A stretch of DNA of 26,466 bases, taken from positions 1 to 26,466 of the IMG/VR virus record IMGVR_UViG_3300005549_000098; one strand, 5' to 3'. The translations under genes were made by a program, and so were the position numbers. Shown piece by piece: positions 5,058 to 19,878 of this stretch. Every line of letters begins with the position of its first letter. Positions within the stretch are counted from its first letter, which is position 1. Under the pieces are notes generated by a model. The model made no database searches and was not told where the DNA came from. It was given only the letters and a program-made list of their open reading frames with translations. Origin of the DNA: a virus.

Positions 5058-5758
5058 GTACTCACCTCCTTCTTCTCCTTGATTAGTCTAATAGATTCTT
5101 TAGCTTGGCATACAATAAGGTAGCGACAATTCTGGCATTCCCAGTCCTCGTTCCATTGGAATTGTTGAGGTGGCTCCCTCTTCTCAATATGCTCTAGATA
5201 TATTTCTTTTCTAGCCTGTAGCCAATTCCAGTTGGCTTGTATCTCTACATCATTAGCTTTTCCCTTGTAGACTCGAAGCGTAGGAAAGGGTGGGCCATAG
5301 TTCCCCATCAAGAATAAGATAGCTAGACTTATTTCTCTGTGTCCAGTAGCTTTGAGGTAAGCTAGGATCTGCTTGATCCAAGTCTGGGGCAACTCATCAG
5401 GCCCCTTCTTGGCTGACAGTCGAGTCGTCTTTAGCTCAGTTAGCCCCTCATTATAGTCTAACCAGTCTGCGCTCCAATGTATGCCATCTAACTCTCCGGA
5501 GGCAGGCTTCTTGTGGGGCCGTAGCAGTACCTGCTCTAAGCCTATACCAACAGCAAACAACATGGTCTCTTGAGGATTCGGCGGCAAGGGATCGTAGCGA
5601 TTATAAAAGGAGCGAGTCAAGCAATACACCAGTTCAGAAACATGGACTAACTTGGCCAGATATGCTTCTTGTCCTAGCTCTAGCTCCTTGCCAATGTCCT
5701 CTAGTATCCTTGTTGCAAGGCTGCTATCCTCAGTCCAGTCCATAGATCCTTCCATCAT
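5054..5758 (-). CDS. Cas4/RecB-like PD-(D/E)XK nuclease with Fe-S cluster
   Basis: A 234-residue nuclease. The active-site core is GELDGIHW (D91) followed by ELKTT (E108, K110) and a helix with PQTWIKQ, the usual PD-(D/E)XK layout with its QxxxY-like helix. C46 in YCLTRSFYNRY near the N-terminus and C208, C211 and C217 near the C-terminus are placed as in Cas4 and AddB, where four cysteines hold a 4Fe-4S cluster. Such phage enzymes process DNA ends for recombination; no CRISPR genes or repeats are present. An inner start at the sixth codon (ATG after GGAAGGATCT) is as good as the first. It overlaps the HNH gene by 29 bases. Confidence 0.87.
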   Translation of the reverse strand: MMEGSMDWTEDSSLATRILEDIGKELELGQEAYLAKLVHVSELVYCLTRSFYNRYDPLPPNPQETMLFAVGIGLEQVLLRPHKKPASGELDGIHWSADWLDYNEGLTELKTTRLSAKKGPDELPQTWIKQILAYLKATGHREISLAILFLMGNYGPPFPTLRVYKGKANDVEIQANWNWLQARKEIYLEHIEKREPPQQFQWNEDWECQNCRYLIVCQAKESIRLIKEKKEVST

Positions 5759-6212
5759 CAGCCATGTAACCTCTAGTTAATCCTGCTCGCCTCGCTCTTA
5801 TCCACTCACGCTTACAGGTTCTACGCTGTTGAAATATCCTGTCCGAATAGGATTGTTTAGCAAAGCGTGTGTTCTCTTGTGTCATAGCATGTCCATGTTT
5901 ACAATGTGTTGAGAAGCTACCAGCACGGTAACAGTTCTCTGCATGTGTGACAGCCTCAAGGTGGGAAGGATTCCAGCACCACTTGTTTAGGCAGGTATGG
6001 TCTAACTCTAGTCCAATTGGAACATTGCCAAGCCTTAGTTCATAGGCAACTTGGTGAGCGTACCGTACCTTACCCTGTACACCTATAGCACTGTAACCCT
6101 TCCTCGGGCCTTGAGATATATGTCCAGGCCAAGACCAGCATAAATCGTTATGTACAGTACTAACTATTCTAGTTAGGTACTCATATAGTGTCTCGCCTGG
6201 TTGCTTATCCAT
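5730..6212 (-). CDS. HNH homing-type endonuclease
   Basis: The 160-residue protein has the HNH_3 layout: an N-terminal CWSWPG start, a strand/helix with YAHQVAYEL, the core LELDHTCLNKWCWNPSHLE (D-H, then the Asn/His of the second half), and a trailing THCKHGHAMTQENT zinc region. These enzymes nick or cut DNA and spread as free-standing mobile genes. It lies between recombination genes without interrupting one, and overlaps the Cas4-like gene by 29 bases. A paralogue is at 19456-19878; here one of the later Cys positions (RRTCKRE against CRTCHAE) is Arg, so this copy may bind zinc less well. The Shine-Dalgarno is weak. Confidence 0.87.
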   Translation of the reverse strand: MDKQPGETLYEYLTRIVSTVHNDLCWSWPGHISQGPRKGYSAIGVQGKVRYAHQVAYELRLGNVPIGLELDHTCLNKWCWNPSHLEAVTHAENCYRAGSFSTHCKHGHAMTQENTRFAKQSYSDRIFQQRRTCKREWIRARRAGLTRGYMADDGRIYGLD

Positions 6213-8877: not shown

Positions 8878-9087
8878 TTATTGACCATTAAGGTACTGCC
8901 TACACTCTGCATCTGTCAGTTGGCGCTCATCTAGCTGCCCCAGGTTCTCTGCACCTAGACAATAGGTAGGTGTACCTGAGGGAATAACTAGATCTGGATG
9001 CTCATCCTTACTATTACTAGCGGCTATCATCCCAACACCTGCTAGCACTCCCAGGCTTGCAACTACTACTATAACTAGCTTTCTCAT
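8878..9087 (-). CDS. Small secreted or membrane-anchored protein (69 aa)
   Basis: AGGAGGAGAA precedes ATG at 9087, making this start better than one 12 codons upstream. The product begins MRKLVIVVVASLGVLAGVGMIAA, a signal peptide or uncleaved anchor, then a short exported part with two Cys (C43 and C62) that could form a disulfide. It follows the secreted dockerin-like gene by eight bases and ends the segment before the promoter at 8806-8834. It resembles the 57-residue product at 12200-12373 in layout. Likely acts at the cell envelope; exact role unknown. Confidence 0.7.
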   Translation of the reverse strand: MRKLVIVVVASLGVLAGVGMIAASNSKDEHPDLVIPSGTPTYCLGAENLGQLDERQLTDAECRQYLNGQ

Positions 9088-9095
9088 TTCTCCTC

Positions 9096-9836
9096 CTAAC
9101 AAGGCGGTATAGAGATACCCCAACCTGAGTCGCCAACTATCCAGTGGCCTTCCAGAGGGTGTACCTCATCCATGCTAATAGCTTCCCAGATTCTGTGCTC
9201 TACATACCCAACTAGCACTGTTCCACAAGGTGCATAGCCTGCGCCTATACCATTGGCAGCACAGTACAGTCCTGCTGTTGCTCCTCCTGTCCAGGTTACA
9301 ATAGGTGTAACTGCAACTGTCTGCCAGGGGTCTCCGTTAGGTGGGCGGGACTGTAGTGCAAAGGTACACTGAGTCCTAAACGTATAGTTATTACCAGCAC
9401 AAGCAGTCTCTCCGTACCAGCCAGTGCCAAACTCAACATGATGGTTGTACCAAACCCCAGACGACCAGACACCAATGGTAGCATTACAGCCCCAGATATA
9501 GGGATCTTCAGGCACGCCATCTATAGTAAACCCCTCTGGTAGTGGCTCCTGTAGGGTAAGTACTCCCAGACAGTGCTGTCCAAAGATGCCTGCTATGTGA
9601 GTTATATCTGTGCCGTCTACCCAACCATCCCCAGGCCTGGGCCAGAGGTCGTAGCCTGCTGGTGCTATAGATGCAGGCTTACCGAAGTATCCTGCTAGTA
9701 GGGTAATGTCTGAGCCGTCTGCATAGCTGTCTGCGTTCAGATCCTCGTGACAGGTCTGTGCTGATTGACTATACACTGGTGCAGTCCTAACTCCTACTAG
9801 CATACATAGTACTAAGGCGAACAGGATATATCTCAT
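9096..9836 (-). CDS. Secreted protein with dockerin-like calcium-binding repeats
   Basis: Start ATG at 9836 has AAAGGAG four bases upstream. Residues 1-25 (MRYILFALVLCMLVGV ... VYSQSA) are a signal peptide. Residues 32-52, DLNADSYADGSDITLLAGYFG, match a type I dockerin repeat with calcium ligands D32, N34, D36, D40 and D43. A second repeat at about 66-86 (GDGWVDGTDITHIAGIFG) has lost the first two ligands to proline. The remaining 160 residues are a Cys-, Trp- and Gly-rich beta domain I cannot name. Dockerins bind cohesins in cellulosomes, but similar repeats also occur in many non-cellulosomal surface proteins. A phage gene of this kind suggests export by the infected cell. The ATG overlaps the upstream gene stop (ATGA). 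Confidence 0.8.
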   Translation of the reverse strand: MRYILFALVLCMLVGVRTAPVYSQSAQTCHEDLNADSYADGSDITLLAGYFGKPASIAPAGYDLWPRPGDGWVDGTDITHIAGIFGQHCLGVLTLQEPLPEGFTIDGVPEDPYIWGCNATIGVWSSGVWYNHHVEFGTGWYGETACAGNNYTFRTQCTFALQSRPPNGDPWQTVAVTPIVTWTGGATAGLYCAANGIGAGYAPCGTVLVGYVEHRIWEAISMDEVHPLEGHWIVGDSGWGISIPPC

Positions 9837-10444
9837 GTTGCTCCTTTCTCTTGTTTTGTGGACAACTCGCCGGACAGGACAGCGCGACGTAACTGAAGCC
9901 AAGCATCCTCGACCACTGCCGGAACCCCCTCCTCAAACTCGCTCTTAAACAATGCGTCTACTCCCTCCACTGCCTCGCGCACCGCCTCCAGGCGACGCTC
10001 AGCCTGCTGCAAGTCGTGCTGGAGCTTCGCTGTATTCGGAAATGCCTCATTCCAGCGGGCCTCTTCCCGCGCCCAGAGTCGCTTGTACTCATCACGCTTC
10101 CTCTCAGCCGCCTCTACCCTGAGAAAAGCCAGGAACCATTGGTCAGGACTGGTCTGACTAAATAGATCACTTACTTGCGCCGCCTTCTCAGGGCCAAGCT
10201 CCTGCTCGACGTACTGCCAAACGTTGAGGGTGACGCGCTCAGCCGCCTCACGCGCCGCTTCCGCTTGCCGCTGTCCTGAACGTAGATATGCAACCGTGTT
10301 CTCGCACGTCTCGCAGACTGGCTCCTCGTTGCCCTTCCTGACTACCCGATGATTTCTGTGCGCCTCACGCTCTGCGGCTAGCTGGGCCGTCAAGCGTGAA
10401 CACGCTTCCATGTAGTGCGTGAGGTCGTCAGGCTGCTCGCTCAT
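9833..10444 (-). CDS. Coiled-coil protein with divergent base composition (203 aa)
   Basis: A charged, Ala- and Glu-rich protein with long helices (residues 11-30, 55-75 and 110-165) and one CETC pair (44-47). It has no membrane or enzyme motif; the helices suggest an oligomeric scaffold or DNA- or protein-binding rod. It uses more GC-rich codons (CGC, GCC, CTC) than its neighbours and has one CTAG in 612 bases, where adjacent genes have many, so it was probably gained separately. Stop overlaps the dockerin-like gene start, and start ATG (10444) overlaps the HTH gene stop. A weak resemblance to small phage coiled-coil proteins is all I can offer. Confidence 0.7.
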   Translation of the reverse strand: MSEQPDDLTHYMEACSRLTAQLAAEREAHRNHRVVRKGNEEPVCETCENTVAYLRSGQRQAEAAREAAERVTLNVWQYVEQELGPEKAAQVSDLFSQTSPDQWFLAFLRVEAAERKRDEYKRLWAREEARWNEAFPNTAKLQHDLQQAERRLEAVREAVEGVDALFKSEFEEGVPAVVEDAWLQLRRAVLSGELSTKQEKGAT

Positions 10445-11635: not shown

Positions 11636-12181
11636 CTATCTATACCTACAGATCGGCCAAGGCTGCATGCCATTATCTAGATATAGCTCATAGGCAACCA
11701 CACTATTCTTATACACATCAGGGCCGTCAGTGTAGATATTCCAGCCATGCTTTAGGAATCTCCATCCGTGTAGGTTGGGATCGAGCTGGAATGTACCAAT
11801 GTAGTACCCTGTGCTCCAGTCATCGTAATAGTCGGCCCCACTTTCACACTGTGCCACAGCAAGTACATACCCACAGGGGAGGGACTGCCAGATGGAGCAT
11901 ATTGTCCCTTCTGCACTGCTAGCTTCAGCCTTGGGGGTGGCCTCCAGATATGTCGGCTCAGGTTCTGGAGTTGTAGTTGGCTGCGGCTCTTGAGGTTGAG
12001 GCTCATCTACAGGCTCCTCGGGTTGCCGCACCATAGGCAGGGTCTGCCCCATGATACTGAGTTCATTGTCCCACACTTCTGACACTTCCACCATTCTACT
12101 CTGTTTCTGCTCATATACTGCTCCTCCGTCTGCTAGAGACGCTGCACCTATGACGACCATTACAGCCGCCATAAGGAGCAT
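11636..12181 (-). CDS. Membrane-anchored lysozyme-like transglycosylase
   Basis: Residues 1-19 are a signal anchor, 50-77 a Pro/Glu/Gln linker, and 95-181 a lysozyme-fold domain of the transglycosylase/resuscitation-promoting type. Key residues are E113 in VAQCESG, the expected catalytic acid, and the GTFQ turn (129-132); VVAYELYLDNGMQPWPIC matches the end of such domains. It should cleave peptidoglycan from the outer face of the membrane. It lies in the leftward block with other exported proteins, not with the packaging genes, so it may remodel the wall early, serve as an anchored endolysin, or alter superinfection. No clear Shine-Dalgarno; the start follows the upstream stop by 18 bases. 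Confidence 0.8.
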   Translation of the reverse strand: MLLMAAVMVVIGAASLADGGAVYEQKQSRMVEVSEVWDNELSIMGQTLPMVRQPEEPVDEPQPQEPQPTTTPEPEPTYLEATPKAEASSAEGTICSIWQSLPCGYVLAVAQCESGADYYDDWSTGYYIGTFQLDPNLHGWRFLKHGWNIYTDGPDVYKNSVVAYELYLDNGMQPWPICRYR

Positions 12182-12199: not shown

Positions 12200-12373
12200 C
12201 TACTCACTTAGACAGATGTACTCACTCCAGTAGCCATGACTGAAGTCTCCCTCACCATCTACCCACTCATCCTCCTGACACTTAGGGACTCTAGGTGTAT
12301 CGTCCTTGGTTGCTGTCATTATACCAAAGACTATCATAGCACCTACAGCCAGACCTATCAGGCCTGTCTTCAT
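12200..12373 (-). CDS. Small secreted or membrane protein (57 aa)
   Basis: GGGGAGGTGAGATAG leads to ATG at 12373. The first 20 residues (MKTGLIGLAVGAMIVFGIMT) form a signal peptide or anchor; the rest is acidic with two Cys (C32, C54), likely a disulfide outside the membrane. Its layout matches the 69-residue protein at 8878-9087. Immediately upstream of the lysozyme-like gene, it could be a partner or inhibitor; this is inference from position. Confidence 0.65.
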   Translation of the reverse strand: MKTGLIGLAVGAMIVFGIMTATKDDTPRVPKCQEDEWVDGEGDFSHGYWSEYICLSE

Positions 12374-13240: not shown

Positions 13241-13903
13241 CTACCCTTGGTTTATGTAGACGAAGGGCTCGTCTGTGTCGAAGTGCTTCCTCAACCAGCG
13301 CGATGCTGATTCTGTGTTTGCTGGCGTAATGTCTGACTCTTCGACTCCATCCGCGGCAGCACGCAGCTCCATGTAGGCTCTGTTGACTGACTTGTACTGC
13401 GCACCGTCTACGGTCTGGATAGCTCCGCGCGACTGAAAGCCTCCGTTACCTCCATTGCTGGACTTGCGAGGGCCTGCGGTTGCTGTCCTGATCCCTGGGC
13501 CTGACGGCTTGGGACTCACTGTCCGCTCGGATATGTCGACTGTGAAGGTAATCTTCTCGACTCCGACTGCGGCGTAGTGATCCCAGTTGATCAGGCCGTC
13601 TCGAATACTGGCTACGTCACCAGAAATCAGGGCATTCCGCTCGTCGCGCTTCAACTCCATCTCGAAGCCATCTACGCGCTCCTGTGCCTTCTTGGCCAGT
13701 TTGGCAGTGTACTCGGCATCACTCTTCGCCTTGTCAACCTTTCGGCCGAGATCCAGCAACTCCTCCATTGAGACCTTGCCAGTCGCGTCCGAGAAAGCCT
13801 TCATCGCGTTAGCGTGAGCCTTGTCTGCGGTCTTAACCTCGTTAGCCTTGGTCACGGCTTCGGCTTCAAGCTGTTCGCGCGTCACTGGTGTTTCAGTTAC
13901 CAT
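13241..13903 (-). CDS. Coiled-coil protein (220 aa) in an inverted-repeat-flanked cassette
   Basis: Residues 8-90 are a charged, Ala-rich coiled coil (EQLEAEAVTKANEVKTADKAH ...). A beta stretch follows (VEKITFTVDIS), then a flexible Ser/Gly/Pro linker (KPSGPGIRTATAGPRKSSNGGNGG) and a C-terminal helical domain (SVNRAYMELRAAADGVE ... SASRWLRKHF) that could bind DNA or protein. Family unknown. The gene uses TCG, GCG and CGC more than its neighbours and I see no CTAG in 663 bases, while the phage average is high, pointing to a separate origin. Both flanks carry a 25-base inverted repeat. It is the first leftward gene after the control region, so it may be expressed early. Confidence 0.7.
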   Translation of the reverse strand: MVTETPVTREQLEAEAVTKANEVKTADKAHANAMKAFSDATGKVSMEELLDLGRKVDKAKSDAEYTAKLAKKAQERVDGFEMELKRDERNALISGDVASIRDGLINWDHYAAVGVEKITFTVDISERTVSPKPSGPGIRTATAGPRKSSNGGNGGFQSRGAIQTVDGAQYKSVNRAYMELRAAADGVEESDITPANTESASRWLRKHFDTDEPFVYINQG

Positions 13904-19161: not shown

Positions 19162-19469
19162 TGCCAGACAGTCCTTTTGATACTTTGGTTGAGGCTTTCC
19201 GTGACGCTAAGGCTGAGATGGTTGGCTCTGCTCGTGCTATCAAAGCCGATATAGTTAGCCCAGCTGATCCCAACGCTGCTAAGTTTACAGCACAGGAACG
19301 TAGGGCTGATTTTGAGGATCTGATTAGTAACCCTGCCAGATTCGAGAGTGAGTTCCTTAGGCTGAAGGATAGGTACAAGCTGCCCGACGACCGTCCTATC
19401 CCACGAAGATTAGTAGATCGAATACTTCTTGGGTTGAGGGAGGCTAAGCAAGCTGATGCTGAGCGCTGA
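19161..19469 (+). CDS. Hypothetical helical protein (102 aa)
   Basis: Highly charged and helical, with Ala- and Asp-rich beginnings (FDTLVEAFRDAKAEM) and a C-terminal part (LKDRYKLPDDRPIPRRLVDRILLGLREAKQ). No family recognised. Scaffolding or portal-accessory proteins of this size occur in this place, but nothing proves it. It overlaps the HNH gene by 14 bases. Confidence 0.65.
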   Translation: MPDSPFDTLVEAFRDAKAEMVGSARAIKADIVSPADPNAAKFTAQERRADFEDLISNPARFESEFLRLKDRYKLPDDRPIPRRLVDRILLGLREAKQADAER

Positions 19470-19878
19470 GAACAGGCTAATAGCTAAGATCGAAGTCAGG
19501 GGTGGCTGTTGGTTGTGGACAGCTGCTCTTAATGCCTGCGGTTATGGTACCCTTCATTGGAACGGGCCATTCTTAGCTCATCGAGCTTCCTATATAATGT
19601 TCAGGGACGAGATTCCCGACGACCTCACCTTAGATCATATCTGTCGAAATCGTGCCTGTGTTAATCCTTGGCACTTGGAGCCTGTGCCTCATTCTGAGAA
19701 TATAATTCGCGGTGAACGAGCGACAGCTACACACTGTAAAAGAGGCCATCCATACAGCGGTTATAACCTAGTGTGGTGGAAAGGTACAAGAAACTGTCGT
19801 ACGTGCCATGCTGAGAGAAGTAGGGAGGCAAAGAGGAGATGGAGGCAAAGACAGAGAGAGGCTAAGAGAGCAGCCTGA
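19456..19878 (+). CDS. HNH homing-type endonuclease
   Basis: 140 residues with the HNH_3 layout: CWLWTAALNACGYG, FLAHRASYIM, the core LTLDHICRNRACVNPWHLEPV, then THCKRGHPYSG and a second CRTC pair, ending in a very basic helix (REAKRRWRQRQREAKR). It is the paralogue of 5730-6212 but keeps both C-terminal Cys. CTAG is rarer here than in neighbours and the codon choice (more CGA, AGA, AGG) fits a mobile gene. It sits between structural genes without breaking one; overlaps by 14 bases and one base with its neighbours. Confidence 0.88.
   Translation: MLSAENRLIAKIEVRGGCWLWTAALNACGYGTLHWNGPFLAHRASYIMFRDEIPDDLTLDHICRNRACVNPWHLEPVPHSENIIRGERATATHCKRGHPYSGYNLVWWKGTRNCRTCHAERSREAKRRWRQRQREAKRAA

Follow-up and report, generated by a model that had tools for sequence, protein, structure and literature searches.

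A phage-encoded dockerin-like protein with a signal-peptide-like N-terminus in an uncultivated tailed-phage lineage

The window analysed here, the 26,466-base IMG/VR virus record IMGVR_UViG_3300005549_000098 (positions 1 to 26,466), contains a gene for a protein with a signal-peptide-like N-terminus, a dockerin-like module and a Cys/Trp-rich C-terminal domain. Its assignment as dockerin-like and phage-encoded has good support from sequence comparison. The N-terminus and the module are conserved in a second phage, G002 (IMGVR_UViG_3300005471_000009; 43,381 bases), whose terminase is 75% identical to that of the window phage, and the occurrence of the gene among related phages is patchy. Dockerins are calcium-binding plugs that bacteria use for fixing proteins onto surface scaffolds, and they are known from cellular organisms; a limited literature search yielded no phage-encoded dockerin. 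The explanation that we favour, tentatively, is that of a predicted exported accessory protein, of which the calcium-loaded plug would attach to the host envelope and display the Cys/Trp-rich domain, altering the surface or the envelope for the phage.

Gene, neighbourhood and N-terminus

The features of the gene, its neighbours and its homologue are as follows.

9096..9836, minus strand: gene of the 246-residue predicted exported dockerin-like protein (open reading frame and translation; stop codon included)
9759..9836, minus strand: putative signal peptide region, residues 1-26; hydrophobic stretch; MR[Y]IL.AL and V-[YF]-S-Q-S-A are shared with G002
9570..9752, minus strand: dockerin-like module, residues 29-89; two repeats, with Cys29 and Cys89 at its borders
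9705..9743, minus strand: calcium loop of repeat 1, residues 32-44 (DLNADSYADGSDI); complete D-x-N-x-D-x3-D-x2-D, all conserved in G002
9606..9650, minus strand: calcium loop of repeat 2 with insertion, residues 63-77 (DLWPRPGDGWVDGTD); D63, D70, D74 and D77 conserved in G002
9099..9569, minus strand: C-terminal Cys/Trp-rich domain, residues 90-246; six Cys; beta strands predicted with low confidence
9833..10444, minus strand: upstream gene of a 203-residue coiled-coil-like protein in the same transcription unit; its stop overlaps the dockerin-like ATG
8878..9087, minus strand: next gene, for a small protein of 69 residues, exported or membrane-bound, with a ribosome-binding site that overlaps the dockerin-like stop
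L003:1305-1676, plus strand: gene of the dockerin-like protein of G002

The open reading frame, strand and coordinates of the preliminary description agree with the open reading frame list and the translation. The ATG at position 9836 is directly preceded by AGAAAGGAG, a ribosome-binding site, and shares the sequence ATGA with the stop of the upstream gene. Because of the overlaps with both neighbouring genes, the dockerin-like gene is placed in the middle of a tightly packed unit. It is intact and has the layout of a translationally coupled gene. The junction at its end (9101, minus strand) is identical to that in G002 (L003:1670, plus strand): TGTTAGGAGGA, comprising the final Cys codon, the stop and the ribosome-binding site of the next gene, is common to both dockerin-like genes although their last domains and the next genes differ.

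The N-terminus of the window protein, MRYILFALVLCMLVGVRTAPVYSQSAQ, is a plausible type-I-like signal peptide, with a likely cleavage site between VYS and QSA, after residue 23. In G002 the corresponding cleavage region has VFS before Q where the window has VYS, giving V-[YF]-S-Q-S-A in both proteins. No lipobox is seen at the N-terminus of the window protein. The signal peptide proposed in the preliminary description is thus borne out at the sequence level by a hydrophobic stretch and a conserved cleavage region, from which we infer export. The term 'Cys/Trp-rich' is likewise appropriate, with 8 Cys and 11 Trp among the 222 mature residues.

The dockerin-like gene shares the minus strand of the window with replication and recombination genes (AAA/helicase, Sak4-like and RecB/Cas4-like nuclease), and in the window its earlier placement in an early operon is correct. 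The placement does not extend to G002, where the gene lies on the opposite (late) strand, after the gene of a PF00486 DNA-binding protein and before that of a 62-residue holin-like membrane protein, with a GH25 lysin gene 1 kb beyond, in a lysis-type gene cluster. The early-operon position is not a property common to the two phages. The neighbourhood in G002, directly before the holin-like protein and near the lysin, would suit a lysis or late-envelope helper acting in the cell wall space at lysis, for which the placement on the replication strand of the window would be incidental. Such a role is unlikely, given that the window gene shares its strand with replication genes and that any lysis gene seen is far away; the region in which lysis genes would be expected lies beyond the end of the window.

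Several envelope-directed proteins are encoded on the minus strand of the window, including the 69-residue protein (8878-9087), a 57-residue protein (12200-12373) and an Rpf-like transglycosylase (11636-12181). The 57-residue exported or membrane protein (MKTGLIGLAVGAMIVFGIMTATKDD...) is clearly related to one at L001:1425-1598, minus strand. The exported transglycosylase, of the resuscitation-promoting-factor type (NCBIfam RpfC, E=6.5e-4; Pfam Transglycosylas, E=0.0044), is encoded on the replication-gene strand and is present in three relatives (G001, G002 and G009). An envelope enzyme outside a lysis cluster is unusual, and its presence hints that the host has peptidoglycan. Two HNH-endonuclease-like genes (5730-6212, minus strand; 19456-19878, plus strand) are both ~40% identical to one in G002 at ~9100-9480 on the minus strand, which suggests that these genes are mobile within the lineage of the window phage.

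The dockerin-like module and its relatives

The first loop, DLNADSYADGSD, reads D32-L-N34-A-D36-S-Y-A-D40-G-S-D43 and contains the full set of calcium-type ligands of dockerins. The ligands D32, N34, D36, D40 and D43 occupy positions 1, 3, 5, 9 and 12, as in dockerin type I, in agreement with the one intact dockerin repeat of the preliminary description, and the set is conserved in G002. The second loop, D63-LWPRPG-D70-G-W-V-D74-GT-D77, is acidic at both ends and has extra residues in the middle; it departs from the 12-residue dockerin type I loop, being larger by 3 residues in the window and by 4 in G002. This repeat had been called degenerate. Its loop is indeed altered, but since the unusual form, with the insertion of 3-4 residues, is conserved between two diverged phages, it represents a variant rather than decay. 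Among 100,000 shuffles of the mature window protein, the loop-1 motif appeared once (1e-5) and the loop-2 motif never; these frequencies, together with the homologue in G002, rule out a chance motif.

A search with the window protein identified the G002 homologue, a predicted secreted protein of 123 residues (E=8e-9). Identity between the two modules is 49%, and the two proteins align with a score of 117, against 25.8 on average for shuffled sequences (sd 5.0, maximum 57). Common to both are all calcium-type Asp residues of the two loops, the YDLxPxP-GDGxVD of the enlarged loop 2 and the FGQHC end. The preliminary description had named lack of conservation of the calcium-loop residues in homologues as evidence against its reading; in the one homologue found they are conserved, and the conservation of the module is thus judged from a single pair, the two homologues known. 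The mature G002 protein has exactly two Cys, one on either side of the module; the window module is flanked in the same way, and the arrangement points to a disulfide clasp between Cys29 and Cys89 of the window protein. Ahead of its module the G002 protein has a TSP3-like segment, DTDQDGWSDGYEFHLGTSP, which is absent from the window protein.

A profile of the two modules was compared with all PDB sequences, and all 10 distinct matches at E<=10 are dockerins. The best match is 2y3n (E=1.8e-6), and the Ruminococcus flavefaciens dockerins 5m2o and 5n5p were also matched; 5n5p is a 'putative cellulosomal scaffoldin protein', which we take to be the ScaA dockerin complex of PMC5934362. Against Pfam Dockerin_1 (PF00404) the isolated window module scores 15.6 bits (E=0.019), below the cut-off of 22.9, and the whole window protein gives no match to PF00404. 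Because homology to dockerins is combined with a score under the Pfam cut-off, the module is described as dockerin-like and not as a member of PF00404. Helices are predicted directly after each loop, at residues 41-50 and 75-88, in models of low confidence (mean pLDDT 32.5 and 44.3). A Foldseek search with the low-confidence model gave nothing significant (best E=1.8), and its hits combine various EF-hand proteins with a single dockerin.

The window module thus resembles dockerin type I and the R. flavefaciens dockerins 5M2O and 5N5P in having two loop-helix repeats, the helices being low-confidence predictions, and it resembles cellulosomal dockerins in the full n, n+2, n+4, n+8, n+11 ligand set of loop 1. 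The insertion in the second calcium loop is a further likeness to R. flavefaciens dockerins, for which published structures show two bound calcium ions and cohesin binding even where the second loop has an insertion or an atypical form (PMC5429695, PMC5934362). In the group 1 dockerins (5m2o) the second calcium is coordinated in an n, n+6, n+12 pattern (PMC5429695), and the ScaA dockerin, with a 12-residue insert in its second loop, binds two calcium ions and its cohesin (PMC5934362). Unlike cellulosomal dockerins, the phage module has a short insert of 3-4 residues containing PxP, and a flanking Cys pair. It is moreover phage-encoded and N-terminal in the window protein, with no recognisable enzyme attached and no known cohesin.

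The G002 protein, which ends in a dockerin-like module with a C-terminal Cys, resembles two domains of bacterial surface proteins in the NCBIfam collection, aligning over nearly the full model length with NF041520 flexitail (whole protein, 14.9 bits; cut-off 40) and NF041540 GC-type dockerin (module, 13.9 bits; cut-off 29); both scores are far under the curated cut-offs, and the window protein matches neither model. These weak alignments bear on the main rival explanation, in which the module, stiffened by calcium and clasped by a disulfide, would serve as a spacer or envelope anchor independently of any cohesin, in the manner of the non-cellulosomal dockerin-type or 'flexitail'-type tails of bacterial surface proteins. 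The G002 protein would be almost wholly such a tail, consisting of the TSP3-like DTDQDGWSDG segment and the module, and giant Omnitrophota ORFs have been noted to contain non-cellulosomal dockerin domains that may be adhesins (PMC10066038). In keeping with such a spacer, none of the 11 phage records has a detectable cohesin. Against it stand the missing NCBIfam matches of the window protein and the position of its module, which is N-terminal and not a C-terminal tail. On balance, we consider the spacer or anchor explanation rather unlikely.

Distribution and the C-terminal domain

Besides the window, 11 terminase-related viral loci were compared, one of which (L017) is only 23% identical. Among these a dockerin-like protein is present in G002 only; the short records are fragments and say little. 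The gene is absent from the three relatives of 43-45 kb (G006, G009 and G010), and for this reason it is regarded as an accessory of the lineage. No match to the window or the G002 protein occurs in 50,697 deposited phage records, and a stringent signature for Cys-ended dockerins finds only G002 in the viral contigs. A looser version of this signature adds three loci and one improbable reading frame, all rejected; the three loci carry the same unrelated peptidase-type protein, which looks bacterial. Relatives of the window protein were not found in the genome-collection contigs. A strict host-dockerin pattern requiring FGQ[HQR]C has no match in the genome contigs, which does not show that hosts lack relatives, and a search for tRNAs as a clue to the host gave none.

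Residues 90-246 carry six Cys and most of the Trp of the window protein. The structure prediction places strands at 118-185 with low confidence, and the domain is probably beta-rich. No relatives of it were found in viral contigs, genome contigs, Pfam, PHROGs, PADLOC or the six-frame ORFs of the relatives. A single match of 40 residues (E=0.004) to a WD40 or PkwA-like fragment was not accepted, because in the same single-sequence search the G002 protein matches a cytochrome c, to which it is plainly not related, at E=0.007; the reversed C-terminal domain, used as a control query, gives E=0.43 at best.

The patchy occurrence, with absence from the three 43-45 kb relatives, and the C-terminal domain without phage relatives are also what a captured host surface gene would show, carried as a passenger without a selected function for the phage. 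This origin is very unlikely: the genome-collection scans revealed no host source, and the intact reading frame and signal peptide in two diverged phages suggest upkeep. In addition, the codon usage of the gene is phage-typical (-0.018 log-likelihood per codon compared with the rest), so that a very recent capture from a host is mildly disfavoured. The upstream gene (9833-10444) is atypical in this respect (-0.228 log-likelihood per codon; GC 0.59). It shares atypical codon usage and a GC content markedly above that of the rest of the window with the gene at 13241-13903, minus strand (GC 0.56).

A possible role at the host envelope

In the explanation that we favour, the gene would be an accessory of a virulent-looking, uncultivated tailed-phage lineage, and its product would be exported by the Sec system of the host. 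Once across the membrane, the N-terminal module would fold around calcium into a dockerin-like plug of two loops, the second of them enlarged, and the disulfide between its flanking Cys residues would act as a clasp. The plug would then attach the protein to the host envelope through a partner located on or within it, which may be a cohesin-like module or some other surface protein. The Cys/Trp-rich C-terminal domain would thereby be presented at the envelope. The most likely pay-off would be a changed surface or envelope of the infected cell, by which, for example, competing phages may be excluded or lysis may be helped. No cohesin is detected in any of the 11 phage records, and the attachment partner at the envelope is therefore hypothetical. 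The gene positions differ between the two phages, on the replication-gene strand in one and in a lysis-type cluster in the other, and therefore a single common pay-off is not certain.

The partner of the module may be a true cohesin. The specific proposal that the phage dockerin docks onto surface complexes of an uncultivated bacterium that carry cohesins, such that the surface of the infected cell is remodelled against rival phages or the phage protein competes with dockerin proteins of the host, is quite unlikely. Exported accessory proteins by which phages change the surface of their hosts are known, such as superinfection-exclusion lipoproteins. The window protein resembles these in being a small predicted exported protein of an otherwise lytic-looking phage with a patchy distribution, but it has no sequence relation to them and no lipobox.

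If a phage does export a dockerin, this would suggest that a plug-and-socket system of high affinity, known from bacteria, is in use by phages at the surface of the host; were the plug to dock onto host cohesins, cohesin-dockerin docking would be a tool of phages. The docking partner would also give a handle for finding the host of this uncultivated phage lineage.
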